Positions 5,866 through 32,980 are shown, numbered from the stretch's first letter. The stretch: 36,268 bases of DNA from Candidatus Magasanikiibacteriota bacterium (GCA_016214465.1 JACROI010000045.1:1-36268); one strand, 5' to 3'. Notes: a model not told the origin generated them from the letters alone. Program-made: numbers and translations.

Positions 5866-5878
5866 TCAAAAATTATTA

Positions 5879-5917
5879 AGGCGCTCATATAATGGGCGCC
5901 TCTTGTATTTTTAAGAA
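5879..5917 (+). terminator. Probable intrinsic terminator after the surface protein gene
   Basis: AGGCGC-tcatataatgg-GCGCCT followed by cttgtattttt. Confidence 0.55.
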
Positions 5918-5951
5918 AAGGGTGATAAAATTAAAAAATTGAAATTTTAAT

Positions 5952-6027
5952 GGGCCCTTAGCTCAGTTGGTAGAGCGTTCGCATGGCATGCGAAAGGTGA
6001 GGGGTTCGAGCCCCCTAGGGTCCACCA
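5952..6027 (+). tRNA. tRNA-Ala, anticodon GGC, CCA encoded
   Basis: GGGCCCT acceptor arm pairs with AGGGTCC. D-arm GCTCAGTTGGTAGAGC, anticodon loop ATGGCAT, T-arm GGGGTTCGAGCCCC, terminal CCA. 76 nt. Confidence 0.95.
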
Positions 6028-6043
6028 TTTCAGATTTGAATTT

Positions 6044-7120
6044 ATGTCTCTTTCAATCGGAATTGTCGGCTTGCCCAATGTGGGCAAGTCAACTTTATTT
6101 AAAGCCCTTACTAAAAAACAGGCTTTGATTGCCAATTATCCTTTTGCCACAATTGATCCAAATGTCGGCATTGTGGAGGTGCCTGATGATCGTTTGGCAA
6201 AACTGGCCGAGGTTTCTAAGTCGGACAAAATCGTCCCGACTGTTATTGAATTTACCGATATTGCCGGATTGGTAAAAGGAGCTAGCCAAGGCGAGGGTTT
6301 GGGCAATAAATTTTTGTCGCATATTCGCGAAACCGCGGCAATCGTGCAGGTGGTGCGCGCCTTTTCAGACCCTGATGTGATTCATGTTGGCGGTAGGGTA
6401 AATCCACAAGAAGATTTGGAAATTATTGGAGTTGAATTAGCTTTGGCTGATCTGGATTCTGCCAAAAAATACCTTAGTAATTTGAAGAGTAAGGCAAAGT
6501 CCGGGTCGACAATCGCATTGGAGCAGGAAATAAAATTGTTTGAAAGGATTGTTGATGCGTTAAATAAAGGACAGGCGATTCGCGATTTGTCTTTGACTGA
6601 TGATGAAAAAAAATTGATTAAAACATTGAATTTTTTAACCAACAAACCAATGATGGTGGTACTGAATATTGATGAGGCTGGCAGTGCCAAACAGTCAGTT
6701 CCGCCGTTAAAGTTTAATGGCCCGATTATTGAAATTTCCGCCAAAATTGAGGCGGAATTTGCTGATTTATCGCCAGATGAAGCAAAAGAATTTTTGTCAT
6801 CAATCGGCCAAAGCCAGACCGGTTTGGATAAATTGATTTTAGCCGGTTATAAATTATTGAATTTAATTACTTTTTTAACTTCCGGGCCAATGGAATCGCG
6901 CGCCTGGACTGTTGCGCGTGGCGCAAAAGCCCAGCAAGCAGCCGCAGTAATTCATTCTGATTTTGAAAAAGGATTTATCCGCGCCGAGATTTGCGATTAT
7001 TCAGATTTTATTAGTTTAGGCGGCTGGTCCAAAATGAAAGAGAGCGGCAAGATGCGTTTGGAAGGAAAGGACTATATGATGCGCGATGGCGATGTGGTGT
7101 TTTTTCATATCGGTAATTAA
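6044..7120 (+). CDS. ychF: Redox-regulated ATPase/GTPase YchF (OLA1 family)
   Basis: GLPNVGKST P-loop, NYPFATIDPNVG, DIAGLVKGASQGEGLGNKFL, C-terminal TGS-like MRLEGKDYMMRDGDVVFFHIGN. Confidence 0.95.
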   Translation: MSLSIGIVGLPNVGKSTLFKALTKKQALIANYPFATIDPNVGIVEVPDDRLAKLAEVSKSDKIVPTVIEFTDIAGLVKGASQGEGLGNKFLSHIRETAAIVQVVRAFSDPDVIHVGGRVNPQEDLEIIGVELALADLDSAKKYLSNLKSKAKSGSTIALEQEIKLFERIVDALNKGQAIRDLSLTDDEKKLIKTLNFLTNKPMMVVLNIDEAGSAKQSVPPLKFNGPIIEISAKIEAEFADLSPDEAKEFLSSIGQSQTGLDKLILAGYKLLNLITFLTSGPMESRAWTVARGAKAQQAAAVIHSDFEKGFIRAEICDYSDFISLGGWSKMKESGKMRLEGKDYMMRDGDVVFFHIGN

Positions 7121-7127
7121 AGTGTTT

Positions 7128-7160
7128 AAAAAAGACCCAGATTTATCTGGGTCTTTTAAT
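7128..7160. terminator. Bidirectional intrinsic terminator between convergent genes
   Basis: AAAAGACCCAG-atttat-CTGGGTCTTTT with T-runs on both strands. Confidence 0.9.
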
Positions 7161-8318
7161 TTTTACAATTTCTCTCCCAACTTTTTGATCAGGCCTGGCG
7201 TAAATTAGTGTCTGGCGCGGTGTTTTGAACTGTTGAAAATCAGGTGACAGAAGTGGCTCAATTCGTAGATTCATCGCGGCTAATTTTTCCAGTAAAGACA
7301 AAAAGATTTTTTGTTGCAATATAGGCCAAATCATTATTATCACTCCGTTTGGTTTTAAAATTTTGGCAAATTCATTCAAACTGGCGCAGTATAGTTGGGT
7401 TAATTCATTAACTATTTTTTGTAAATTTTTTTTTGTTTCGCGGTTTCTTAATGGCGGACCAAGAAATGGTTCTGTAATAATTGCGTCAATGGAATTGGCG
7501 AGAAAACATTTGGATAGCAAGATGGCGTTACATTTTGTTAATTTACAGTTTTTTAATTTCAGCCAGTCAATATTTTTTTGCGCGTCAGCAATCGCTTTGT
7601 CGCTATTATCGCTTCCGAGTACGTTGGTATATCCCATAAGCATGGCTTCAGTCAAAATTGTGCCAGATCCGCAAAAAGGGTCTAAAATTACGGCATCTGT
7701 GCTTATTTCAGCCAAATTTATCATTATTTTAGCCAGTTTGGGTGGTAACATACCGGAAAATTTATCACGTCCCGGCCGGCCATAGTCGCGTTCGCTAAAT
7801 TCAGCAAATGGCTGTATGGCCAATGTTTGGCCAAGCCAAATTTGATTTTTGTCACCGGCAATGATTATTTCTACTCCATTTTCATTCAATAGTTTGTTTG
7901 TTTTTACAACCACAGATGACAAGACCTTTTCTCGTGAGCTCACAAAACGCGCTTTGATGTCTTGATCGGACAATTCTTTTTTAATTTCCAATCCAAGTGT
8001 TGGAAATTTGCCAATGTAGGCGCTGATGCCGAAAAATATTTTTCTGTCTGTTGCCTTGTCTTTTATTAAATTCAGTATTTCTTTTTTAAAATCAATCATT
8101 TCAATTTTTCCCAATTGTTTTTTCACTTCGGCAATTTTTACGGTTCCGCCCAATTGCGCCATAATTTTCGCTAAGTCTATTTTTTCAATAACATCTAAAA
8201 TCAGATTTTCTTTTTGGAAAAAGGAAACTCTGTATTCTATTTTTAATCGTTTGAACAAAGAAAAAATTTCGGCCGTTGACAATTCAGGTTCTCGGCCGAG
8301 AATGAAAATATATTGCAT
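7143..8318 (-). CDS. Putative RNA methyltransferase (UPF0020/Trm11-like class I MTase)
   Basis: DPFCGSGTILTEAMLMGYTNVLGSDNSDKAI SAM-binding motif; TEPFLGPPLRNRE in the catalytic motif position. Confidence 0.75.
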   Translation of the reverse strand: MQYIFILGREPELSTAEIFSLFKRLKIEYRVSFFQKENLILDVIEKIDLAKIMAQLGGTVKIAEVKKQLGKIEMIDFKKEILNLIKDKATDRKIFFGISAYIGKFPTLGLEIKKELSDQDIKARFVSSREKVLSSVVVKTNKLLNENGVEIIIAGDKNQIWLGQTLAIQPFAEFSERDYGRPGRDKFSGMLPPKLAKIMINLAEISTDAVILDPFCGSGTILTEAMLMGYTNVLGSDNSDKAIADAQKNIDWLKLKNCKLTKCNAILLSKCFLANSIDAIITEPFLGPPLRNRETKKNLQKIVNELTQLYCASLNEFAKILKPNGVIIMIWPILQQKIFLSLLEKLAAMNLRIEPLLSPDFQQFKTPRQTLIYARPDQKVGREIVKIKRPR

Positions 8319-8332
8319 AAGAAAGGAATCGC

Positions 8333-8653
8333 CTATTTGGTAAGTGGCGCGGATGGAAACGGATTGCGCACTTCTTGCCAGTTGGCAACAGGCGCATTTT
8401 TACGATTTTCCGCGGTAGATTTTACTTTTTGATATAGGTCAATATCCAAAATATCCACGGCCAGCTGTGATTTGAGAATCACAATTTCTTCCGCTTGTAT
8501 AAGAGTCAAATAAAACCGTTGATACAAAAAAAGCAAAAAAATAATGAATGTTGAGCTGATTATAAACAAAATACCGTAAAAAGTCAATCGGATGACCAGC
8601 TCCTGTTTGGAGACATTTTTATCAAGATATTTTTCAAGATTAATTTTGAACAT
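8333..8653 (-). CDS. Small single-TM protein in the type IV pilus cluster
   Basis: 106 aa with one hydrophobic helix; overlaps the start of the pilO-like gene region. Confidence 0.6.
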   Translation of the reverse strand: MFKINLEKYLDKNVSKQELVIRLTFYGILFIISSTFIIFLLFLYQRFYLTLIQAEEIVILKSQLAVDILDIDLYQKVKSTAENRKNAPVANWQEVRNPFPSAPLTK

Positions 8654-9170
8654 ACACTTCAGCTTTCAATGACATGTTTATTAAAAATGAAGCGTCGCGA
8701 TTTAAGTTGACTTCTGAAATGGAAATAAGATAATCGCTGTGCTCCAATGCGGTTAAATATGACAATAAATCAACAAATTCCCCTTGAGTGTCAATTTGCA
8801 AATCTATTTTATCAATATCTCGGTTCTTTGTTTTATCAGCGCGGGCAATGTTGATTTTTTGTTTAATGGAGAATTTATCAGCCAAGCCCTCCAGATAAGA
8901 GATAAAGCCGATTTCTTCTCCATTTTTAATGAATAAGGACCTTAATTCAGTAGTGATTTGTTTGGCCTGCGCCAGAATATTTTGCGATTTGTGAAGATAG
9001 CGCACTTTTTCATATTTTAATTCCAAAGAAGTGCGCAGTTCTAAAATATGGTTGTTCATTTTTTGTATGCTTTGATATTGTGGGTAAATAATCAAAAAAC
9101 TCACTAAGAAAAAAAATGCTAAAATACCGCCTGTGATATAGATTAATTTTTTTTCATGTGTTTGAAACAT
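8640..9170 (-). CDS. pilO: PilO-like type IV pilus assembly protein
   Basis: N-terminal TM plus coiled coil followed by a small alpha/beta domain; position after pilM and pilN. Confidence 0.65.
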   Translation of the reverse strand: MFQTHEKKLIYITGGILAFFFLVSFLIIYPQYQSIQKMNNHILELRTSLELKYEKVRYLHKSQNILAQAKQITTELRSLFIKNGEEIGFISYLEGLADKFSIKQKINIARADKTKNRDIDKIDLQIDTQGEFVDLLSYLTALEHSDYLISISEVNLNRDASFLINMSLKAEVYVQN

Positions 9171-9178
9171 AAGGTGTT

Positions 9179-9709
9179 TTATGGCAGATTCATTTCAATG
9201 TTGATGATAAAATTGATGTTTTCTTTGGCGGTTAAAGTTGAGGCCGGCAAGTCAAGCTTTTTAACCCAGGGCAATTTGGTTAAATTGTCTTTCAACAACA
9301 ACAGATCGGCGCGGGTTTTAGCCATACCCTGAATGATCAGATTTTCGTTTTCTTTATTAAAATCAAGGCCGTTTAGGAAAATGCCGGTTGACAGGTTTTT
9401 TAAGGTTTCAGCCAAATATGGTGTCCAGAAAAAAAAGTTACTTTGCGCCTCGTCTATATTTTTTAAATCTTTGTTGATTTTTTGAATTTCCTGATTGATT
9501 TGATTGTAGACCGGTTCCAGATTGGTAGTGCGTGATTGAACAGACCCGAGATTGGAGAGGAGTATCTGGTTGGCCACGACCAAAGAAATCGCCACTATCA
9601 GTCCGTAAAGTAAAATTATTTCAATTAAAAAACGCGAATAAAGAACCAAATAAATATGGTTAATCAGCTTCTTTTTTTCCGGCGGCATTAAATTGATAAT
9701 GATTTCCAT
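9179..9709 (-). CDS. pilN: PilN-like type IV pilus assembly protein
   Basis: MEIIINLMPPEKK N-terminal motif (INLLP-like), TM and coiled coil; follows pilM. Confidence 0.75.
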   Translation of the reverse strand: MEIIINLMPPEKKKLINHIYLVLYSRFLIEIILLYGLIVAISLVVANQILLSNLGSVQSRTTNLEPVYNQINQEIQKINKDLKNIDEAQSNFFFWTPYLAETLKNLSTGIFLNGLDFNKENENLIIQGMAKTRADLLLLKDNLTKLPWVKKLDLPASTLTAKENINFIINIEMNLP

Positions 9710-9715
9710 AGAAAT

Positions 9716-10795
9716 CTACAAATTTATCGGCGTTTCCACCGCTCTCATCGCCAGTCCCACTGCCGTGGTATATAGAAGCGAGTGTTCTTCGTCAATTGGC
9801 GGTTGTCCGATTGGAAAAAGATTAACCCAAGGATTGGCTTTTCTCACTTTTAATTTTAATTTGGCTGACAGATAATTTTCCAATGCAGGCAAGTTGGCTC
9901 CGCCTCCGCATAGTCGAATGCCAGTTAAAGGATTTTTTTCCGGAAAATGCAGCTTGTAAAATTGAATGGCTTGAGTGATCTTGTCGGCCAATTCATTTAA
10001 ACTGCCCTCCAAGGCGGATTTAAGGTTTCCTTTACATTTTTTTGAGTCCAGCCCGCATTCTTTTTTCATTTTTTCAGCTTCGGACAATTCCAGATTCATG
10101 GCATTGGAAATTCTTTCAGTCACCTCTTGTCCTGCAAAAGCCAAAGAAAGTGAAAATTGTATTACTCCATGATCAAAAATTATAAAACTGGCTCTGGTGG
10201 CTCCCAAGTCCAAAATACCGCGAGCTTCGTGTGAAAGATCTTTTTGGCGATTGATAACAGCGCGGGTGATGGCAGTGGCTTCAACTTCCATTGCCAGAGG
10301 CGTGAGCCCGGCTATATTTAAAAGATAAGTATAGGTGTCCGCGATTCTTTTGGGTACAGCCGCGAGTAGCACCGAAACATTATTATCTTCTTGTCCAATA
10401 ACTTGCCAATCCAAATAAATATCATCCAAATCAAACGGTAAATATGATGGAGCAACTTCGCGGATAGTTTCTTCAGTAATTTCTTCTTCCGTTGTTTTTA
10501 ATTGAATCAATTGGATGTAAGTTTTGGTTTCCGGCAATGAAATGGCCACCCATGGAGAAACAGCCAGTCCGTCTTTTTGTTTGGCAATATGATTTTTTAA
10601 GATCTTCATTATTTCCTCCGGCTTTTGAAGTTCTCCGTCTATAATCCAACCCGGTGGCAGTGGAATTTGAGAATGGTGCGCTAATTTAAAATGTGGTTTT
10701 AAAAAATTATCGCGCATCTGTTGCAGCTGCACCAATTTAATGGAGCGGTCACCAATATCCAATCCGAAAGAGTTATGAAATGGGTTTAAAAACAT
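9716..10795 (-). CDS. pilM: PilM, actin-like type IV pilus assembly ATPase
   Basis: FGLDIGDRSIKLVQL, ILDLGATRASFIIFDHGVIQFSLSLAFAGQEVTERI, LCGGGANLPALENYL. Confidence 0.9.
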   Translation of the reverse strand: MFLNPFHNSFGLDIGDRSIKLVQLQQMRDNFLKPHFKLAHHSQIPLPPGWIIDGELQKPEEIMKILKNHIAKQKDGLAVSPWVAISLPETKTYIQLIQLKTTEEEITEETIREVAPSYLPFDLDDIYLDWQVIGQEDNNVSVLLAAVPKRIADTYTYLLNIAGLTPLAMEVEATAITRAVINRQKDLSHEARGILDLGATRASFIIFDHGVIQFSLSLAFAGQEVTERISNAMNLELSEAEKMKKECGLDSKKCKGNLKSALEGSLNELADKITQAIQFYKLHFPEKNPLTGIRLCGGGANLPALENYLSAKLKLKVRKANPWVNLFPIGQPPIDEEHSLLYTTAVGLAMRAVETPINL

Positions 10796-10802
10796 AAATA
10801 AA

Positions 10803-11891
10803 TTACATTGCTTGCGATAGGGAATACATTGGCATTATCACGGAAATTGCCAGTCCGCCCACTACTACGCCAAGGAAGATAATGAGCACCGGCTCGATAA
10901 TCGTGGAGATATTTTTCAGTGTCTGATCAATCTCTTCGTTGTAATATGCCGCCAGTTCATTTAGTAAGTCATCAGTGGTGCCAGAACGTTCTCCCACCAT
11001 AATCATTTGCGTGGCCAATGGCGGAAACAGTTTGGGATAAAATTCCAAAGAATCGGAAATGGTGACGCCGGTTTTGACATTTTTAGACGCCTCCAGAACA
11101 GCATTTTTGTAATGGACATTGTTTAAAACATCAGCAGTAATTTCCAAGGCCTCAATAATTGGTATGGCGCTTTTAGAAAGTGAGCTTAAAGTCATGGTAA
11201 ATCGAGCTAAATTTAATTGTTTGGAAATTTTGCCAAAAATAGGGAGTTTAAGCAGTAATGAATCCAAAGCCGAACGCATTGTTGGTTTCTTTTTTAGATA
11301 AATAAAACTGATTATCAGCAGAATCAAAAGTATTATCACCCAGATACCATAATTGATTAAAAATGAACTGACGGCAATAAGAATGCGCGTGGGCAGAGGC
11401 AACTCCACATTCATTTCACCAAACAGATCCAAGAGTTTCGGCAGAACAAATACCACCATTTCCACGCCTATGCCCGCCACTGCTGTCAAGACGACAATCG
11501 GATAAATCATAGCTCCTTTGACTTTAGAATTCAGCTCCTTATTTTTTTTCATTTGTTTAACAATCTCTGACAAGCTTTCATCCAATTTGCCTGACACCTC
11601 GCCAGCCGCCAGCATTTTTACATAAATCGCGGGCATTAATTCCGGAAACATAGTGAGAGTGTCGGCCAGTGTTGTGCCCTTGTTCACTTCTTGGCCAACG
11701 GCCTTCACCATTTCTTTTAGTTTGAGGTTGGGTGTTTGGGCTGCCAAAATGCGAAACGACTCGGTAATGGACAGTCCGGCTTTCAACATGACGCGCAGAT
11801 TATCCATTAAAAAGATTTTTTGCGCCACGCTGATGCGGTCGATTTTATCTGAAATTTTTTGCCAAAGAGTTTTGGTATTTTGTTTGGACAT
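10803..11891 (-). CDS. pilC: PilC/GspF inner membrane platform protein
   Basis: Duplicated T2SSF domains (FLMDNLRVMLKAGLSITESFRILAAQT / FTMTLSSLSKSAIPIIEALEITADVLNN); C-terminal TM MPMYSLSQAM. Confidence 0.93.
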   Translation of the reverse strand: MSKQNTKTLWQKISDKIDRISVAQKIFLMDNLRVMLKAGLSITESFRILAAQTPNLKLKEMVKAVGQEVNKGTTLADTLTMFPELMPAIYVKMLAAGEVSGKLDESLSEIVKQMKKNKELNSKVKGAMIYPIVVLTAVAGIGVEMVVFVLPKLLDLFGEMNVELPLPTRILIAVSSFLINYGIWVIILLILLIISFIYLKKKPTMRSALDSLLLKLPIFGKISKQLNLARFTMTLSSLSKSAIPIIEALEITADVLNNVHYKNAVLEASKNVKTGVTISDSLEFYPKLFPPLATQMIMVGERSGTTDDLLNELAAYYNEEIDQTLKNISTIIEPVLIIFLGVVVGGLAISVIMPMYSLSQAM

Positions 11892-11896
11892 ATTAT

Positions 11897-13615
11897 TTAA
11901 TCGCGAGTAGCCTCTAAAATTTCTTCCAGAGTCGTAAGGCCGAGTTTGGCTTTAATTATGCCATCTTGAAGCATGCTAGTAAAACCATTTTTAATAGCGC
12001 CTTGACGAAGCTCTTCTACGCTGGCTTTTTTATTGATTAATTCGGCAATATCCTTGCTGACTTCAAGAGTTTCATAAATTCCCAATCGGCCTTTGTAGCC
12101 ATCGTTGTTGCATTTTTGGCAGCCCTCGCCGCGATAAAATGTCCATGATTTCAAAGCGGCGTCGCCTGTTTTTAAACATTCGTGTTTTTTAAATAGCTCA
12201 ACCATTTTTTTTGTATCCACTATTTTTTCCAAATCAGCGATGTTTTCCATTGTTAATTTGTATTCTTTTTTGCAAAACGGACAGATTTTGCGCACCAAAC
12301 GCTGTGCCATAATCAGATTGGTGGTGAAAGCAACGAGAAATGATGGCACGCCCATATCAAGTAAACGCGGAAGAGCTGTCGGGGCATCATTGGTGTGAAG
12401 AGTTGAAAGGACTAAGTGTCCTGTTAGGGCCGCATGAGCTGAAATTTCCGCGGTTTCCGGATCGCGGATTTCACCCACCATGATAATATCCGGATCTTGG
12501 CGCAAAAACGCGCGTAGTCCGGTGGCAAAAGTGTAATTCACCCGCGGTTGAACCTGGCTTTGATTAATGCGTGGCATGTGGTATTCAATCGGGTCTTCAA
12601 TCGTCACGATATTTACACCGGGTTGATTGAGAATATTTAGAACCGAATAAAGTGTAGTGGTTTTTCCAGAGCCGGTCGGGCCGGTTACCAAAACCATACC
12701 GTGCGGCTTGTTAATTGCGTTTTCAATTCTTTTTTTATCATCTGGCAAAAAGCCTAATTGGTCCAAGGTTAATGGTTTGGTGCTTTCTGGCAACAAACGC
12801 ATGACGATTTTTTCGCCATCATAGACCGGCAAAATTGACACGCGCAAAGATATTTTTTCATCCTGGATTTCAATTTTAATGCGGCCGTCTTGTGGTTGTT
12901 GGTGTTCATCAAGTTTGAGATTGGCGAGAATTTTGATTCTGGCGATTATGCCGGCCTGTACGGCTTTGGGCAAAGTCATCACTTGCCGCAAAACACCATC
13001 CACGCGATAGCGCACGGCCATTTCTTTTTCCATTGGTTCAATGTGAATATCCGACGCTTTTTCAAACACCGCGTGTTCCAAAATGCTGTTGACGATGTTT
13101 ATAATTGGCAGGTCTTCGGCAATTTTTTTCAATTGTTTTTCATCGCCAGCATCTTCCAATTTAATGATTTGCAGTTCCGATTCTAAAGTGGCGTGGTATT
13201 TTCGCAAGACCTCTTTCAAAGAGCCTGGTGTTGTCAAATGGATTTTTACGTCAAGCCCAGTTTTCCGTTTGATAAATTCAGCGGTTTGTAAATCTAAAGG
13301 ATCCAAAACCGCGACTTTCAATTCTTTGCCTTCTTTGGCAAATATCACCACTTGCCGGGCCACGGCTAAGGGGCTGGGAATGAGAGAAATCACTTCTTTT
13401 TTGATTTCACGATTTTTCAAATCAATAAAAGGCAGATTAAAATGGTCGGCAATGGCTTGATAAAAAACCGTTTCATCAACAATGTTTTTACTGGTTAAAT
13501 ATGATTCCAAAGGCAGGCGCGTTTTTTCCGCGGCTTTCAGCGCCGCGCGCAATCCGGCTTCATCTAGAATTTTTTTGTCTTTAATAATTTTTTTAAGGAT
13601 ATCAATATTGATCAT
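11897..13615 (-). CDS. pilB: PilB/GspE family type IV pilus assembly ATPase
   Basis: MshEN-like N-terminus; Walker A GPTGSGKTTTLY, DPDIIMVGEIRDPETAEISAHAALTGHLVLSTLHTNDA; CPFC...CQKC zinc motif. Confidence 0.95.
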   Translation of the reverse strand: MINIDILKKIIKDKKILDEAGLRAALKAAEKTRLPLESYLTSKNIVDETVFYQAIADHFNLPFIDLKNREIKKEVISLIPSPLAVARQVVIFAKEGKELKVAVLDPLDLQTAEFIKRKTGLDVKIHLTTPGSLKEVLRKYHATLESELQIIKLEDAGDEKQLKKIAEDLPIINIVNSILEHAVFEKASDIHIEPMEKEMAVRYRVDGVLRQVMTLPKAVQAGIIARIKILANLKLDEHQQPQDGRIKIEIQDEKISLRVSILPVYDGEKIVMRLLPESTKPLTLDQLGFLPDDKKRIENAINKPHGMVLVTGPTGSGKTTTLYSVLNILNQPGVNIVTIEDPIEYHMPRINQSQVQPRVNYTFATGLRAFLRQDPDIIMVGEIRDPETAEISAHAALTGHLVLSTLHTNDAPTALPRLLDMGVPSFLVAFTTNLIMAQRLVRKICPFCKKEYKLTMENIADLEKIVDTKKMVELFKKHECLKTGDAALKSWTFYRGEGCQKCNNDGYKGRLGIYETLEVSKDIAELINKKASVEELRQGAIKNGFTSMLQDGIIKAKLGLTTLEEILEATRD

Positions 13616-24689: not shown

Positions 24690-24707
24690 TATAGCGAGTT
24701 TTGTTTT
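24673..24707 (+). terminator. Intrinsic terminator after ftsH
   Basis: ACAAAA-t-TCGCTAT-aatt-ATAGCGA-g-TTTTGTTTT. Confidence 0.85.
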
Positions 24708-24719
24708 ATAAAATCTTTA

Positions 24720-26554
24720 TGATAGAACGGATACCAATGAATTCAAAATCATTGCAAGTAGCTTTCCCAGAAGTATATCAGGAATTTTTTGCTAAATGCG
24801 ATTTAGTAGTTTCAGCCAATCGTCAAATTACTTGGACTGGCGATTACGGGGTGATCTATGGCGGCATTATGCTGCGCGAATCATTGCCAATTCGCACTTA
24901 TGTTGGGATAACACTTCGCGCTAGATCAAACAAAATTAAAATCGGCGGTTGTTTGGAATTTGATCCATCTAAACAGGTTTTTTTGTCGGCCGATCCGGAA
25001 ACTTATTATAAAAATAAATTCGAACATCATTTAAGTGAATTTTTGGAAAAGACAGCCGGTATTAAGTCCAATGGTTTTGAAATTCATATTTTAAATGAGA
25101 TACCATTTGAGCGTGGAATAGGACAAAGAGGCGCGTTTCTCTCTTCTCTGATTGCGGGTATATTATTGCTTAATGGCAAAATTAATCAAGCGGAAATCAA
25201 TAAATGGCGCGATTTAGATTCTCGTTCTCTTAAAGAGTCAATAAATAAGTTTGATTTTGTGTTTCGTCTAGCTTGGAAATTGGATAATTTTATTAATACA
25301 GCCGCATCTGGTAATACTATGTTTGGAGCATTATTTCCATCTTCCGAACCATTTGTATTTTTATCTAAATTGCCAAAAGAAATTTATCCAGAAGTTGGAC
25401 GAGGATTGTCACTTGACTCCTTGTCTTTGCTTGATCAGGGTGAATATTGGGGAGCGCGTTTATCAGAATTGACACAACAAAAAGAAGGGTGGCCTTGGTC
25501 TTTTGATTATGGATTAATCAACATCGGAGAGGCTAGTCATTCCCGGGTTTCAAATCTTTGGGCTGTTGAACAGATTAGGTCAATGAAAGATAATGGCATA
25601 AATTTTGAGAAACAATTTAATCAGCATTTTAATTTTTCTTCCAGTGCCGTTAAACCAACAGTTTATACTTTAGCCGCGGATTCGGATAATTTATGGTTTA
25701 ATTATGTTAATATCTTATTAATAAATGGATTGCAAACATTTCTTTGTTTCCGAGATATTTTTAAATTAAATTTATTGCCATCATTGGCAGATAGATTGAT
25801 TGAATTGTGGCAGCAGGAACAGCATTTATTTTATAATTTTAATTTATCTTCTTTAATGACAGATGAGATATGTTCTAGAATTCGTTCTTTATTTCAAGAA
25901 AAAGATAAAGCCAATTCTTTTGTCACAGTCAGGATGGCAGGTAGTCGGAGACAAAGTCAGGCCATATTTTTAATCAATTCTGACCAAATGAAAAATAAAG
26001 TCAACGAGGTAATTGTTGCTTTGAAAGCGGAGTTTAATGAGTCATCGGCTTTGGATTATGCCTCTTGGCTTGACGGTTATGAAGAAGAAGGCGGAATCAA
26101 AATAGAACAATATTTGGCTGATAATATTCATTCTCCACTGGTTTCAGCTGATATTTTAAAACTGGATTTGTACACCAAGGATGACATTGTAAATAAAATG
26201 GTCAAATTGGATAATTTGGATAAAAAAGAAATTGATTTGTTATTAGATACTGTTCACAATAAAATTTATATTAAAGGCAAGTCAGTGCACGCGGACCAAA
26301 TTCCAACCCAAATTGCCACGATTGAGATTGTAAAAAAACTTTTGGAACATTTGGGCAAAAATGTATCCAATAAAGAACTGCCTGCCAAGTCGTATTCCAG
26401 TTATCGCAATGAATTTCAAGGAAAAATTTCCAGTCCTTTGATGAAATTAATGGGCGACAAGATAAAAATTGATGTTGAGGGTGAGTTGATGAATTTTACC
26501 GTGCGATTGGAAATCAGTCGTGGTGCAAAAATTGGAGTATTAAAAATGATTTAA
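24720..26554 (+). CDS. Divergent GHMP-kinase-like protein with C-terminal extension
   Basis: The listed TTG start at 24701 falls in the terminator; ATG 24720 or 24738 is more likely. ITWTGDYGVIYGGIMLRESLPIRTYVGI resembles GHMP motif 1; NEIPFERGIGQRGAFLSSLIAGI resembles GHMP motif 2. Confidence 0.6.
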
Positions 26555-26574: not shown

Positions 26575-26607
26575 CTAAAATAAGCCCAATTTTTGGGGTT
26601 TATTTTT
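26575..26607 (+). terminator. Intrinsic terminator after the GHMP-like gene
   Basis: AAATAAGCCCAA-tttt-TTGGGGTTTATTTTT. Confidence 0.7.
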
Positions 26608-26729
26608 GTTTTTCTCTATTTTTTCAGTATTTTTCTTTTGGTTTTTTGAAATAATAGCAGTGTTCTGAATCTAGGCAGGGTGTCTAGGTTTGGAATATAG
26701 TACCTTACAATAAATTAAGGAGGTGAATA

Positions 26730-27065
26730 ATGATGCCGCAATTCAAGCCGTTTGCTTGGTTGGATTTCCCAGGTCCTTTTAGATCGGTGAGTATATCCCC
26801 CTTGGAACCGGCGCCATTTATGAAGCTACCTGACCTCACGCCACCAGATCCATATCCGGATGTGGATCGCGTGTCTCGTAGCATGCTGGAGATTCATCGG
26901 TCGCTTCCCGATCCGCCACCTCCACTTCTCCGCCATCGTGAACCCGATGCGTTCGAGACCATCTCCGCGATGTTGGAAAAAAACAAGATTCAATACAGAG
27001 AAGAACGCGCTTACGCTGACGGCATCATGGATGGCTTGACGAGGTTCGGACGCTACCGGCCGTAG
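26730..27065 (+). CDS. Small proline-rich hypothetical protein (cassette gene 1)
   Basis: 111 aa; perfect SD AAGGAGGTGA upstream; multiple PP motifs (LPDLTPPDPYPD, SLPDPPPPLL). Confidence 0.65.
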   Translation: MMPQFKPFAWLDFPGPFRSVSISPLEPAPFMKLPDLTPPDPYPDVDRVSRSMLEIHRSLPDPPPPLLRHREPDAFETISAMLEKNKIQYREERAYADGIMDGLTRFGRYRP

Positions 27066-27084
27066 TACATCGGGCCATAACTAA

Positions 27085-27169
27085 TGAGGAGATGTAACAT
27101 CTCCTCACCTTTCTCCTGAATCCAATAAAATTGGAAACAGAAGAAAGGTTGAATCAAGGCGGATTCAAC
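27085..27169 (+). other. Three contiguous hairpins in an intergenic region
   Basis: TGAGGAGATG-taa-CATCTCCTCA; ACCTTTCT-c-CTG-aa-TCCAAT-aaa-ATTGGA-aa-CAG-a-AGAAAGGT; GTTGAATC-aaggcg-GATTCAAC. Confidence 0.8.
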
Positions 27170-27200
27170 TTAGCACATTGAAAATCAAAGAGGTGGAATC

Positions 27201-28142
27201 ATGATTATTCTTATTATCATTGGAGTTGTCGTTGGCGGTATGGCGCTCTCGTGGATCATCACCAGAGCTCCATATATCAGACCGGAAGATATTGATCACG
27301 CAACCAAGGAGACAGAGGGGCTATGGCAGGAGATTGTGCCAGTTATCAAGGATTTCACTGGCAAGGATCCGACCGAATCGTTGGCATTTCTCAAGAAATT
27401 GGTGGACATGCCGCAGTTCACTGCTATTGAATATCGGAGGCAGGCCGGCGAACTAATCAGACACTTAGAGGCGGCTGCTCAAGAAATCGCTGGAAAACTC
27501 TCGCAAGGCAAAAATGATTTTGCCGAGCGAGCTTGGCGCAATCTGTGCGATGAAATCAATCATTTGCGCCTCTCTTTGTCCTACGGAGTAGGTCCAACTG
27601 TTGAGGCCGGGCAGATTGAGAAAATTGTCAATCTTCTGCAGCAAGTCAATCAGAACAAAGAAAGGATCTTTGCTCTCACGAGCTTGTTTGCAGAGGCGCG
27701 CGAACTTCTCAAAACGGCATTGACTGCCTGCCAAGACGAAGATTGTGTGCGTGCCCTGCAGGCGCTCCGCAATAGATTGAGTGAACTCGTTTTGGCTGAT
27801 CTTTCTTTTACACGGCCAGATGAGATTCGCACCATTGAGCAGGAGTTGAAACAGGCGAAGCAGTACCTGATTGTCCTTCTTAATCAGGATATGGACGCAA
27901 ATGTTCCTCCAAGCTCAACTACTGGCGCTGATCCATTGTCAATCCTTGATGTGGACAAGACCGCCACCAAAGAGGAGATCAGGGACGCCTACCACAAAAA
28001 GATAGCAGCTTATCATCCGGATAAGATTGAGGCGCGCGTCAAACAGCTTTCGGACGAACCAGAAGTGCAGGAAAAGCTTCGTGCTTGGTTCACAGAGCAG
28101 GCACGTCAGATCAACGATGCCTATGAGAAACTCAAGAGCTAA
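27201..28142 (+). CDS. Membrane-anchored protein with C-terminal J-domain (cassette gene 2)
   Basis: N-terminal TM IILIIIGVVVGGMALSWII; helical middle; C-terminal DPLSILDVDKTATKEEIRDAYHKKIAAYHPDKI...QINDAYEKLKS with HPD. SD AGAGGTGG. Confidence 0.85.
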   Translation: MIILIIIGVVVGGMALSWIITRAPYIRPEDIDHATKETEGLWQEIVPVIKDFTGKDPTESLAFLKKLVDMPQFTAIEYRRQAGELIRHLEAAAQEIAGKLSQGKNDFAERAWRNLCDEINHLRLSLSYGVGPTVEAGQIEKIVNLLQQVNQNKERIFALTSLFAEARELLKTALTACQDEDCVRALQALRNRLSELVLADLSFTRPDEIRTIEQELKQAKQYLIVLLNQDMDANVPPSSTTGADPLSILDVDKTATKEEIRDAYHKKIAAYHPDKIEARVKQLSDEPEVQEKLRAWFTEQARQINDAYEKLKS

Positions 28143-28153
28143 GGAGGTAGCCC

Positions 28154-29017
28154 GTGGATACAACAAAAAAACCAGATTGGCTGATAAAGGCCATTCAACC
28201 TGTGTCTGGATTGCCGCGTCAGGAAGCGGTTTCAACGCCGTTGAGTATTACCCAGCGCATTCAAGCACTCTCCAGCAAGGGAGTGGCGTCGGGTAAACAC
28301 GCGGCTCTGCAAGTGGTATTTTTCTGCGACACCACCGGAAGCATGTACTCTTACTTTGACCGCGTGAGGTGTTCTATTAATCAAATTGTAGAACGAATCA
28401 CGCAAGAAGGCATCAGTGCGGAATTTGCGGTCTACGGCTATAAGAATCACGGCAAAGAAGAATGGATCATGAATGGGCTTCCATTCCAGCACCAAGCTTT
28501 CACTACCGATGCCGCAACTATCCTTAACATGAGGATGTGGAAGGGTGGCGGAGGAGATGGTCTTTGCGCTGTTGAGGATGCCTTTCATCACCTGAATCAA
28601 ACCATAAGCAGTCATCCCATTTTTTTCGGCGCCAAGCGCGTGGCCATTGTCATAGGTGATATGCCGCCGCATGGAGTGATAGACAGTGTGACGAACTGTC
28701 CATACCAATATGACTATCGCCAAGAAGTGAGAGAATTACATCGGCACGGTTTCACTTTCTATAGCGTCTTCTGTTGTTCAGAAGATGTGGCTAATCTCGG
28801 TTATGAAGAGATACCAAACTATTTCCGTTGGCTGGCTAAAGAAACCAACGGTCGGTATCTGGATATCTCTGACATTAATTCGCTCATTGACCTATTACTT
28901 GGTATCTGTATGAAAGAAATCAGGCGGCTAGATTCTTTCATCGCAGATTTGGAGAAACGCCGAACCCTTTCTCCAAACACCAAACGCCTGCTTCTCGCCT
29001 TGAAAGCAGGAAGTTGA
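28154..29017 (+). CDS. von Willebrand factor A domain protein (cassette gene 3)
   Basis: GTG start with AAGGAGG. MIDAS-like VVFFCDTTGSMYSY, GGGGDGLCAVEDAFHHL, VAIVIGDMPPHGV. Confidence 0.8.
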   Translation: MDTTKKPDWLIKAIQPVSGLPRQEAVSTPLSITQRIQALSSKGVASGKHAALQVVFFCDTTGSMYSYFDRVRCSINQIVERITQEGISAEFAVYGYKNHGKEEWIMNGLPFQHQAFTTDAATILNMRMWKGGGGDGLCAVEDAFHHLNQTISSHPIFFGAKRVAIVIGDMPPHGVIDSVTNCPYQYDYRQEVRELHRHGFTFYSVFCCSEDVANLGYEEIPNYFRWLAKETNGRYLDISDINSLIDLLLGICMKEIRRLDSFIADLEKRRTLSPNTKRLLLALKAGS

Positions 29018-29031
29018 CAACTCTAACCTGC

Positions 29032-29118
29032 AGAGGAGTGGCGTTGTAACTTAAATCAAATGTCATTCCTCTTCCCTTTTATCTCCATAAATTATTTTGT
29101 GGATATATAAGGGGAATG
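29032..29118 (+). promoter_or_regulatory. Alternative mutually exclusive hairpins upstream of cassette gene 4
   Basis: AGAGGAGTG (29032-29040) pairs with CATTCCTCT (29064-29072, one G-U). The same CATTCC...CCCTT arm can pair with AAGGGGAATG (29109-29118). Confidence 0.5.
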
Positions 29119-29160
29119 TTTCCCTCGTTCTTTTACAACTAACTTGATGGAGGTATCGTC

Positions 29161-30732
29161 ATGATCTCGGTCCAAAGCGTAGCCGTTATCGGCAAAAAGC
29201 TGTTCTGGAGGATTGCGCTAATCATTATTTTCTTGGTGTGCGTGCAGTACTTGGCCATCTTCGTTTTTCCTTTGACGATGAGTGGTGCCAAACAACTGTT
29301 CGGCGATGTATATCAGATCGGTGTCAATCACTATTTGGCGCAAGCCATTAATACTCTTCTGACACTGGCCATCACACTGTTGTCGATGAAATTCATCTTC
29401 GGCTGGGATGCCATGCTGAAAGCATTACTGATTGACCCAAAAAAGAAATACATCGGCTTCATTGGTATCGTGTTAGTGATAGTCGTGTATTTCTTGGGAA
29501 TGTGGTGGCTGACAAAGGATCAGCAGTTTGCAGCCGACGGCACGCCGTTCAGAGGCGCGTATAAGGATCCCATAACTGGAGTGCTTTCCGAGCATCCAAA
29601 TCCTTTTGGCATCACTGCCGAAGGCAATACTATAGAACCACTGACCAAGAAAAGCGCGACGGCTTTAATCTTTCAGGATCAGATCAAGAAAAACTTTCGT
29701 CCCCATCTTAATGAGTATGGGGAGTTCAATCGGGAATTTCTTCTTGATACAGAGAATATCAATAGAATACCTTGGGTAGATCAAACTACCGGTGATTCCA
29801 TGATATTCTACTGTCTTGATGCTGAAGGCAACCCGCATCTCTTCGCTTGGGAGGGTCGTTGCGCAGACGGCAAGGTGCGTGAACGAGCCGATAAGGGCAT
29901 TCAGATTATGCTCTTGTGCGACACCCGCCAACACAAAGAAGAGCAGAAGAAGATAGAAGAACAGCGCCAAAGCGCGGTTGACTTCAAAGCCGCGCTGGAA
30001 GCCACGAAGAAGAAGCAGGCCGACCTAGAGCAGCAAGTGGCGAGCAGTTCCGCTCAAGAAGTAGCTGGTCTGCGTGTTGAAGTGAAAATTCTTCGAGAGG
30101 CGCAGGCACGGCAAGCCAAAGGTATTCAAAACTGCGCAGAAGAGCAAAGAAATAATCTGCGCCGTCACAGGGCAGAATTGAAGAAAGACATGGATAGTTT
30201 GGCTGCGTATGAACTTGACCACGAAGCGCGTCTTCTTTACGACATAGCTTCTTGGAAGAGTAATATCTCTAGAGAGATTAACAGCTTCAACCAGCCATCT
30301 GTTCAGCCACAAGCCATAAATGTCGCGCATGCTCCTTCGTCAAAGTCAATGCATGCGCGAGTGATTCTAGAACAGCGCAGGATTCAAGGATGGGCGGGCT
30401 CTTATAATTCGTGGGTTTTGCGCGAGATCAATGGCGTCAATGTGACATTTGACCAGATGACGCTTACTATCTGGAAGCGCGGACGCAAGGATGAACCGAT
30501 TGAAATGGTAAAGCAACGCGCGCCAACAGTTTTCTCCAAACCCAATCTGTATCTCCAAGTTCCGGCAAAAGGCAAATTGGTTGTTTTTAATGAGCAACCA
30601 CCGCGTACTGATTTGCTGAATTTGAGAGATTATAGCGACTGGATGCACGGCTTGGTCTGGGTAGAAATAACTCTGACAGGCACGGATGTCAACGGCAACT
30701 CGCAACAACTCCTGCTCATGAAAGCAGGATAG
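29161..30732 (+). CDS. Membrane protein with cytosolic coiled coil and C-terminal beta-rich domain (cassette gene 4)
   Basis: 523 aa; three predicted N-terminal TM segments; charged Q/E/K coiled coil (HKEEQKKIEEQRQSAVDFKAALEATKKKQADLEQQV); SD GGAGGT. Confidence 0.75.
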   Translation: MISVQSVAVIGKKLFWRIALIIIFLVCVQYLAIFVFPLTMSGAKQLFGDVYQIGVNHYLAQAINTLLTLAITLLSMKFIFGWDAMLKALLIDPKKKYIGFIGIVLVIVVYFLGMWWLTKDQQFAADGTPFRGAYKDPITGVLSEHPNPFGITAEGNTIEPLTKKSATALIFQDQIKKNFRPHLNEYGEFNREFLLDTENINRIPWVDQTTGDSMIFYCLDAEGNPHLFAWEGRCADGKVRERADKGIQIMLLCDTRQHKEEQKKIEEQRQSAVDFKAALEATKKKQADLEQQVASSSAQEVAGLRVEVKILREAQARQAKGIQNCAEEQRNNLRRHRAELKKDMDSLAAYELDHEARLLYDIASWKSNISREINSFNQPSVQPQAINVAHAPSSKSMHARVILEQRRIQGWAGSYNSWVLREINGVNVTFDQMTLTIWKRGRKDEPIEMVKQRAPTVFSKPNLYLQVPAKGKLVVFNEQPPRTDLLNLRDYSDWMHGLVWVEITLTGTDVNGNSQQLLLMKAG

Positions 30733-30740
30733 GAGGCAAC

Positions 30741-30962
30741 ATGCTCTGGTACATCGTTCTACTTTTCATGGTGGCGGTGCTGGGAGTGGGGCTGGCCATG
30801 ATTTTTAACAAGATCACGGTTCCGCCCGAACACAAGGAGAAGTACCTCATCGGGGCGCTTACGGGCGGCACTCTGCTGGGACTTCTCAGCTTCATCCTTC
30901 CCAAGCCCAAAACGCCTGACTGGCTCAAGAGGAAGCCAGTCAACAACACTCCAGCCAAGTAA
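30741..30962 (+). CDS. Small two-TM protein (cassette gene 5)
   Basis: 73 aa; SD AGGAGG; MLWYIVLLFMVAVLGVGLAMIF and YLIGALTGGTLLGLLSFILP. Confidence 0.7.
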   Translation: MLWYIVLLFMVAVLGVGLAMIFNKITVPPEHKEKYLIGALTGGTLLGLLSFILPKPKTPDWLKRKPVNNTPAK

Positions 30963-30985
30963 AATTGTGCTTTCCTTTCAAAACC

Positions 30986-31046
30986 GGGGACGAGCTTCAA
31001 ATATAGGTATAAACAGAAAAAAACATCTGTTTGTATCCTCGTCCCC
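30986..31046 (+). other. Long stem-loop at the cassette 3' end
   Basis: GGGGACGAG (30986-30994) / CTCGTCCCC (31038-31046), enclosing AAACAGA/TCTGTTT. Confidence 0.7.
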
Positions 31047-31220
31047 CTTCCATTCCGTGGCACCAACCCGCCTGACAACCACGACGCCAAATGCAACATT
31101 CTCTCCATGTTCTACTCCTCGCACTATAGTGGTCGGGGTTGTCAAGACACATAAATCGATAAAATGAGAGAGAGGAAGTTTTTAAATAAATAGGTTGTTG
31201 ATAAGTTAGTAAAGTTTTGA

Positions 31221-32006
31221 TTATTGAAAATAAATGTCACTCGGAGTCTGGTAATTCAAAGATTGATGCCGGTGCCGGTTGTTGTAGAAAAGAAAATATT
31301 CATTTAAGCCCGTTCTGGTTTCCAAGATATTTTGATACGAATTTAAATAAATGTTTTCTTGTTTCACTGTCCGCCATAATCTTTCCACAAAAATATTGTC
31401 CAAACAGCGGCCGCGGCCGTCCATGCTCACCTGAATGTCATTGGCTTTTAAAATTTTGGTAAACCGATGGCTGGTGAAATTGCTTCCTTGATCCGAATTG
31501 AATATTTCGGGTCTGTTTTTGTTTTGGGTCATAGCATCATCAAGGCATTCCAGACAAAAATCAATTTCCAGATTGTTTGACAGTTTCCAGTTAATCACAT
31601 AGCGAGAATACCAGTCAATAATGGCAATAAGATAAGCGAAGCCTCGTTCCAATCTTACATAAGTTATGTCAGTGCTCCAAACTTGGTTTGGTCTCTTAAT
31701 TTCCGTGTTTCTTAACAAATATGGATAAATATGGTGTTCTTTGTTTGGCTGGCTTGAATTTGTTGGTTGAGGATAAATCGCTTGAAGACCGAGCTTATCC
31801 ATCAATGTTCTCACATGGCCGCGGCCAATAATGATTTGATGCGTCAGATTCAATTCAGCTCTAATTCTCCTGTTTCCATAGAAAGGATAAGCTGTGTAAA
31901 TTTCATCGATTAAGTCCATTATTCTTTTGTCTGTTTCACTTACGCCAAACGGCTGATAATAGAGGCTGGAACGAGCCACTCCCAACAGCTCGCATTGTCT
32001 GGCCAA
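31221..32006 (-). CDS. IS3-family transposase OrfB (DDE)
   Basis: ARQCELLGVARSSLYYQP, YPFYGNRRIRAEL, WSTDITYVRLERGFAYLIAIIDWYSRYVINWKLSN, NSDQGSNFTS, FVERLWRTVKQENIYL, RRHQSLNYQTP-like. Confidence 0.93.
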   Translation of the reverse strand: MARQCELLGVARSSLYYQPFGVSETDKRIMDLIDEIYTAYPFYGNRRIRAELNLTHQIIIGRGHVRTLMDKLGLQAIYPQPTNSSQPNKEHHIYPYLLRNTEIKRPNQVWSTDITYVRLERGFAYLIAIIDWYSRYVINWKLSNNLEIDFCLECLDDAMTQNKNRPEIFNSDQGSNFTSHRFTKILKANDIQVSMDGRGRCLDNIFVERLWRTVKQENIYLNSYQNILETRTGLNEYFLFYNNRHRHQSLNYQTPSDIYFQ

Positions 32007-32028
32007 AGATATCCTGTCATGATCTTTT

Positions 32029-32361
32029 TCAACCAGTCTCTTTTGTTCCGCAGGGGTGGAAAGTTGATAATTTTTTTTTAAGCCAGTCCAGCTCGGCGTC
32101 CCGCTGTCCTATGATTTTGTATAAATTGTCCAGTTGTTTTTGATATTCAAATTCTTGTTGTTTTTCTTTTTTACGATTGTCCTTGAATAAATCCGGAAAG
32201 TTTGCCAACGCATGTTTTTTCCACAATCCGATTTGAGTCGGATGCACTTGGAAATCTGAACTGATTTGAGACATAACTTTTTCTCCCCTGATGGCAGCTA
32301 ACGCCACTTGGGACTTTTCTTGCGGACTGAAGGTGCGCGGTGTTTTGGTCATATGATTCAA
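32029..32361 (-). CDS. IS3-family transposase OrfA (HTH)
   Basis: RTFSPQEKSQVALAAIRGEKVMSQISSDFQVHPTQIGLWKKHAL...LDNLYKIIGQRDAELDWLKKKL. Confidence 0.9.
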   Translation of the reverse strand: MNHMTKTPRTFSPQEKSQVALAAIRGEKVMSQISSDFQVHPTQIGLWKKHALANFPDLFKDNRKKEKQQEFEYQKQLDNLYKIIGQRDAELDWLKKKLSTFHPCGTKETG

Positions 32362-32403: not shown

Positions 32404-32980
32404 TTGTCAGACTATTATACTGCGGTTCGCGTTGGGCGACGAATGCCAAATACTGATCGGCCGCGAGCAGACCCAGCGCCTGATGCGAATCTTTGGCATA
32501 GAAGCAATCCACCCAAAACACCGGACCACTGTTCCTGCTCCGGGACACAAGATTTATCCATATTTGCTGCGGAATGTGCCTATCATCCGTTCCAATCAGG
32601 TGTGGAGCACGGACATTACCTACATTCCATTGGAAATTGAAACCGCCTTCTGTGCCCGCGCTTTGAAAAGCGCGCTCGCGCGCGCTGTTCCGGAAATCCA
32701 CAACTCTGATCAAGGTTCGCAGTTTACATCAAATGAATATGCCGGCATATTGGAAGCAAACAAAATTCAAATCAGCATGGATGGCCGAGGCAGATGTTTA
32801 GACAACATTTTCGTGGAAAGATTGTGGCGGACAGTGAAGTATGAAGATATTTATCTAAAACATTATTGCACCATGCAAGAAACGTACGAAGGACTGCAAA
32901 ACTATTTTCCATTCTACAACCAAAAACGAAGACACCAGTCCTTGAATTACAAAACGCCGGAAATAGTGTATCATGGTTAA
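32404..32980 (+). pseudogene. Decayed IS3-family transposase OrfB, 5' truncated with internal deletion
   Basis: Retains LIGREQTQRLMRIFGIEAIHPK, WSTDITYIPLE, NSDQGSQFTSNEYAGILEANKIQISMDGRGRCLDNIFVERLWRTVK. Lacks the segment equivalent to RGFAYLIAIIDWYSRYVINWKLSNN. Confidence 0.88.

Follow-up and report, generated by a model that had tools for sequence, protein, structure and literature searches.

A membrane-anchored J-domain protein encoded next to a vWA protein in Patescibacteria and other lineages: a putative DnaK co-chaperone with a vWA adaptor

What could be the common function of a J-domain protein, a vWA protein and three neighbors that match no known family, and do these genes belong together at all? 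This question is raised by a locus of a Candidatus Magasanikiibacteriota bacterium (GCA_016214465.1 JACROI010000045.1:1-36268), a stretch of 36,268 nt that was analyzed at its full length and is called the window here. The block consists of five co-directional ORFs on the plus strand (26730-30962; Table 1), all of which are present as claimed in the initial annotation, where the block had been delimited at 26690-31050. The statement that three of these ORFs match no known family stands as well: searches against Pfam, NCBIfam, PHROGs and PADLOC detect none, and an Rfam search returns no match.

The borders, too, are found where they had been placed, that is, a terminator-like hairpin on the left and an IS3-family element on the right. 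By contrast, the label "GHMP-like" for the upstream gene (24701-26554, 617 aa, GC 0.34) is not retained because its similarity to GHMP kinases scores 15.7 bits vs the Pfam cut-off of 22.3. This gene is not present in any of the three nearest genomes, so that a direct demonstration of insertion by empty-site comparison failed. The intact-looking IS3 copy is faced by a degraded second copy with an internally shortened integrase core (32432-32980, plus strand). At a distance from the block, reading of the translations reveals a type IV pilus-like run in the order pilB, pilC, pilM, pilN, pilO (8640-13615, minus strand). Co-directionality and borders agree with the description of the five genes as one block; however, the block need not be a single transcript because it contains terminator-like hairpins, one at 29110-29125 (pattern only) and one at 27085-27107. 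The latter is a perfect 10-bp inverted repeat, TGAGGAGATGTAACATCTCCTCA, located between the Pro-rich ORF and the J gene, and is terminator-like or operator-like. The GC content of the block is 0.47-0.55 vs 0.34-0.46 in the left-side neighbors. The vWA gene looks acquired, given that it is missing in the other 94 of the 95 genomes searched (own genus, family, order and class). The same genome encodes DnaK beside DnaJ, away from the block.

Table 1. Features of the block and its right border, and loci included in the vWA clade
Feature	Position	Strand	Evidence
Terminator-like hairpin after upstream gene	26577-26606	+	pattern only
Pro-rich ORF, 111 aa	26730..27065	+	ORF; start preceded by AAGGAGGTG
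TM-J, 313 aa, core gene 1	27201..28142	+	Pfam DnaJ 3.8e-8; homologues of like layout
HPD motif of J-domain, residues 272-274	28014..28022	+	sequence; alignment with 15 J-domains
vWA protein, 287 aa, GTG start, core gene 2	28154..29017	+	Pfam VWA 1e-5 (above cut-off)
MIDAS-like DTTGS, residues 59-63	28328..28342	+	vWA alignment
523-aa protein: three TM, coiled coil, C-terminal Ig-like beta domain	29161..30732	+	ORF, HMM, AlphaFold, Foldseek
C-terminal beta domain, GxDxNGxxQ motif	30361..30726	+	HMM; AlphaFold pLDDT about 85-90 in core
Two-TM protein, 73 aa, positive C-tail	30741..30962	+	ORF, topology
IS3-family element, right border, outside system	31221-32361	-	Pfam rve 1.6e-26; ORFs
IS3 orfB; orfA	31221-32006; 32029-32361	-	ORFs
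Patescibacteria members: window, L009, L012, L132-L136, L151			
Cyanobacteriota members: L014, L015, L018, L164, L165			
Planctomycetota members: L016, L171			
Archaeal member: L017 (Argoarchaeum)			

The membrane-anchored J-domain protein (hereafter TM-J) can be assigned to the J-domain (Hsp40) family by sequence criteria: its J-domain exceeds the Pfam cut-off (33.7 vs 27.8 bits) and contains the HPD motif, which is intact as initially read. The predicted N-terminal tether corresponds to a TM anchor at residues 2-20, followed by a helical middle and the C-terminal J-domain. The AlphaFold model (pLDDT 78.5) consists of an all-helical middle and a J-domain, and the modelled J part matches solved J-domains in Foldseek. 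The N-terminus is uncharged and the C-terminal part is long; the J-domain would be cytosolic, as it can meet DnaK only there. An alignment of 15 J-domains shows that the window sequence is divergent: it does not begin with YYxILGV, and it ends shortly past helix III, lacking the KR..YD tail found in the relatives. The HPD motif is kept in 14 of the 15, the archaeal protein having HSD instead. Given this divergence, the archaeal substitution and the loss of the J-domain from the TM partner encoded by the nearest relative, an Uhrbacteria locus (L012), the coupling to DnaK may be weakening in the branch of the window and in some other members.

The vWA gene starts 11 bp past the stop of the J gene and encodes a protein without TM or signal. 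Both motifs that had been noted in it are located, DTTGSM at residues 59-64 and GGGGD at 131-135, and the Pfam match bears out the domain assignment. Eight residues (D59, T61, S63, D135, D169, H173, C182 and C207) are invariant in 11 aligned members; the middle MIDAS Thr is away from its usual place.

A phylum-wide protein search identifies one clear homologue, on contig L009, where it is accompanied by TM-J, a two-TM protein, a multi-TM protein related to the 523-aa one and two beta-domain ORFs. Pattern-scanning 85,462 genomes with the two vWA sequences, and searching the class with the J protein, yielded further loci. Eleven vWA sequences, three of which (L132, L134 and L136) had initially been found by way of the J protein, were combined into a profile that was then run on the phylum, the class, Cyanobacteriota and Planctomycetota; the loci from the 85,462-genome scan and from the cyanobacterial and planctomycete profile searches were picked by vWA alone. 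True members are rare: 8 of the 287 class genomes contain one, and 2 of the 381 genomes sampled from the phylum. Altogether, the vWA clade comprises 17 loci from Patescibacteria, Cyanobacteriota, Planctomycetota and one archaeon; not counted are L172, which scores 215 bits and has a weak J, and L019, a shortened copy of the locus in Microseira that lacks J. In the GC-rich L164, L165 and L172, the vWA frames were placed by HMM, and longer antisense ORFs overlie them.

In 15 of these 17 loci, the gene directly adjoining vWA on the same strand encodes a J-domain protein, which is the co-occurrence across unrelated contigs that had been set beforehand as the test. Over the 15 loci, the gap is between -4 and about 60 bp, with one of about 250 bp; in two genomes the reading frames share 4 bp, and in six they are separated by 9-16 bp. 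TM-J homologues of equal layout are encoded directly upstream of vWA in eight Patescibacterial loci, the ninth being the Uhrbacteria locus. The J gene is also upstream in the archaeon and in the planctomycete L171, whereas it is downstream in Cyanobacteriota, so that the link has outlived rearrangement. Thus, the association of the two genes is more than chance. A coincidental neighborhood, in which unrelated genes were joined by an IS3-linked island or by an assembly chimera, would fit the IS3 elements at the right border, the GC shift and the absence from near relatives; it fails to explain why the pair and the relatives of the 523-aa protein are linked across independent genomes, contigs and phyla. 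Chance linkage is rejected on the basis of this recurrence, and we consider such an origin of the block very improbable.

The other exception among the 17 loci is the planctomycete L016, in which a single 742-aa frame contains both HSP70 (Pfam, 9.5e-91) and VWA (4.1e-8) domains and is followed by genes for GrpE (2.2e-9) and another Hsp70 (3.6e-55). Together with a 1324-aa protein without a Pfam match, these genes form an operon (4058-12822) that resembles a complete private Hsp70 machine. In a vWA tree, this clade is separated from a sister clade with 100/100 support, and the window sequence joins the Uhrbacteria sequence (100/98). None of the roughly 100 sister-clade loci carries a gene for a J or Hsp70 protein at a distance of up to 3 kb; in a single locus, a J gene is found 4.9 kb away on the opposite strand. 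The sister proteins (L020-L120, e.g., L021, L066 and L092) are about 360 aa long, have a conserved C-terminal domain of their own and come from myxobacteria, cyanobacteria, clostridia, Patescibacteria and large IMG/VR contigs. That the vWA gene came from a phage or a plasmid was considered and rejected, since phage, plasmid and IMG/VR searches retrieve only distant vWA proteins or this sister clade.

J-domain proteins direct Hsp70 to a particular place or client. Because adjacency of J to vWA is the rule in the clade, and because one member is fused to Hsp70, it is likely from these gene arrangements that the vWA protein is coupled to DnaK; the same constant pairing and fusion are the reason to propose that it serves as the client or docking reader of a DnaK co-chaperone. 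We infer that TM-J, located in the inner membrane with the J-domain facing the cytosol, would bind the vWA protein and hold it at the membrane; the vWA protein would read the client by its metal-ion (MIDAS-type) face, and the J-domain would then trigger ATP hydrolysis by the housekeeping DnaK at this client. In the extended forms of the locus, the likeliest clients would be the neighboring protein with three TMs, coiled coil and beta domain, and the two-TM protein, the assembly or turnover of which would be driven from the cytosolic side, the working domains being located outside. The result would be a vWA-chaperone couple in which DnaK takes the place of the MoxR AAA+ ATPase. We hold it somewhat more probable than the opposite that the block is such a dedicated membrane-docked DnaK co-chaperone, with the vWA protein selecting clients, likely the transmembrane proteins encoded alongside.

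The gene complement differs among the loci. Two genomes (L133 and L135) carry J-vWA alone, between mutS and mutL, and so the conserved core is two genes, TM-J followed by vWA. The fixed five-gene cassette that was initially envisaged has to be abandoned in view of these two genomes, the unmatched Pro-rich ORF, the weak relatives of the two-TM protein and the variability of the accessory genes. The clients proposed above are chosen by gene neighborhood alone, and the two-gene form has no such neighbors. The extras include three-TM relatives (L009, L012, L132, L134 and L136), with several paralogues per cassette, and coiled-coil TM proteins (L134, L136 and L151). One cassette contains a gene for a protein with a LIM domain and a DA1-like metallopeptidase (L132, 4440-5318), the product of which has a weak match to PADLOC peptidase_U41, and another one a TM transglutaminase-like protein (L136, 10171-11040). 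Such variable accessory genes might belong to a conflict system directed against phages or competitors, in which J, vWA and DnaK, as a "thresholding chaperone", would restrain variable membrane effectors until an invader is sensed. The patchy distribution (8 of 287 class genomes and 2 of 381 in the phylum sample, with none among 94 relatives) and the GC content of the block, above that of its neighbors, would be compatible with this role, and conflict systems with MoxR-vWA and with Hsp70, GrpE and DnaJ have been described (PMC7159879). However, apart from the weak peptidase match, a PADLOC search at E 0.001 finds no catalogued anti-phage system; the window has no nuclease, toxin or sensor domain; the pair in the mutS-mutL interval comes without effectors; and the neighbors in other genomes are housekeeping genes rather than defence islands. 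A conflict role is accordingly regarded as unlikely.

The 523-aa protein has the features initially described, with TMs at residues 9-27, 62-80 and 98-116, a coiled coil at 245-376 and a beta-rich end at 401-522; its soluble part carries the C215/C234 pair. The N-terminal part has relatives in five other Patescibacterial cassettes (L009, L012, L132, L134 and L136), and an HMM finds the beta domain also in L009 (twice), L012 and L132. AlphaFold is confident for the beta sandwich only, downstream of the coiled coil, and its Foldseek matches (Kir C-terminal domains, ApaG and TRAP-alpha) are weak, with E about 0.01 or worse, so that the modelled fold indicates no more than an Ig-like sandwich. In nine aligned three-TM proteins, the TM2-TM3 loop mostly contains 4-5 Lys/Arg and the TM1-TM2 loop mostly 0-3; judging from these loop charges, the family probably has the N-terminus inside and the long soluble part outside the cell. 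Two cysteine pairs are each kept or lost jointly in all nine sequences, a pattern expected of disulfides on the extracytosolic side. The large domain of the 523-aa protein being probably outside, this protein would join the cytosolic vWA/DnaK complex only via its membrane part. Hence, the membrane-docked, DnaK-recruiting complex of the initial annotation is kept in part: the TM anchors fit and the J-vWA pair recurs, but the large domain of the 523-aa protein probably lies on the other side. The same features could belong to a surface or secretion machine, with the transmembrane proteins forming a structure for host attachment or adhesion and J and vWA acting as a cytosolic assembly factor. Consistent with this possibility are the disulfide-type cysteine pairs, the coiled coil and the Ig-like beta domain of the extracytoplasmic parts, together with the several paralogues per cassette; nevertheless, the cassettes include neither a secretion ATPase nor a pilin, no sorting motif is seen, and the fold matches are as weak as stated. 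We consider this an improbable alternative, which, moreover, overlaps the preferred co-chaperone explanation and differs from it in purpose alone. The present evidence does not tell apart a role in defence, stress or surface assembly.

The two smallest ORFs differ in their standing. The 73-aa two-TM protein yields no match in a BLASTP search; however, it is probably related in sequence to the 104-aa two-TM protein of L009, with a shuffle-test score of 44 vs 23 +/- 4 (0 of 500 shuffles as high). For the Pro-rich ORF, phmmer against all fetched loci matches only the query itself, and its membership in the system is doubtful.

The recurrence of these genes in bacteria and an archaeon suggests an undescribed kind of Hsp70 machine around a vWA adaptor; no description of a vWA/J-domain pair was found in the open-access literature searched. 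A broader possibility, which we put forward tentatively and with rather less than even confidence, is that of cross-domain Hsp70-vWA machines, in which an ancient vWA clade always goes with Hsp70, through an adjacent J protein or by fusion, and has given rise in Patescibacteria to a transmembrane complex carrying DnaK-driven work across the envelope. The vWA domains often bind proteins via the metal site and act as adaptors for MoxR ATPases (PMC7159879), and it is mainly with these AAA+ enzymes that vWA adaptors are known. If correct, the present reading would extend the adaptor principle to an Hsp70 machine and offer a testable client-selection module. In the tiny genomes of Patescibacteria, a private DnaK co-chaperone with envelope-spanning partners would suggest that some task at the membrane repays the expense, possibly at the surface of contact with a host.

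Several known systems invite comparison. The TerY-P triads (PMC11090510) likewise contain stand-alone vWA proteins in accessory loci; unlike in these triads, no PP2C phosphatase or kinase is found among the five window proteins (Pfam) or in the other cassettes (by eye). The GAP1-N2 GTPase systems combine Hsp70, GrpE and DnaJ domains, including a DnaJ-fused protein, in accessory loci (PMC7159879), whereas here there is no FNIII-DnaJ fusion, Pfam scans of the window proteins detect neither a GAP1-N2 protein nor a TRAFAC GTPase, and vWA is the constant partner. DjlA, the best NCBIfam match of TM-J (2.2e-8), has the same arrangement of N-terminal TM, helical middle and C-terminal cytosolic J-domain with HPD, but TM-J reaches only 34 bits vs the NCBIfam cut-off of 162, over residues 186-312 (mainly the J end), and is tied to vWA. 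A TerB/DjlA identity of its middle is not supported: this part is predicted as a helical bundle, and Foldseek returns no significant match for it and no TerB-like fold among the matches. In the AtcJABC system of Shewanella (PMC6715715), a dedicated J protein encoded in an operon similarly brings DnaK to specific partners; AtcJ, however, is short and soluble, AtcA, AtcB and AtcC have no recognized domains, and neither vWA nor TM is involved. The MoxR-vWA couples and ternary systems (RavA-ViaA; Kaur et al. 2020, PMC7159879) resemble the block in placing a vWA protein, the presumed adaptor, beside an ATP-driven chaperone along with variable extra genes, and the vWA domain itself is present here, with MIDAS residues conserved. 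The difference is in the chaperone link, which here is J-domain/Hsp70: the window cassette contains no MoxR, and a MoxR partner from the same genome was rejected, with no PF07726 match above the cut-off. Thus, membership in each of these systems fails on a defining feature, and the working principle is the one common to MoxR-vWA and AtcJ.
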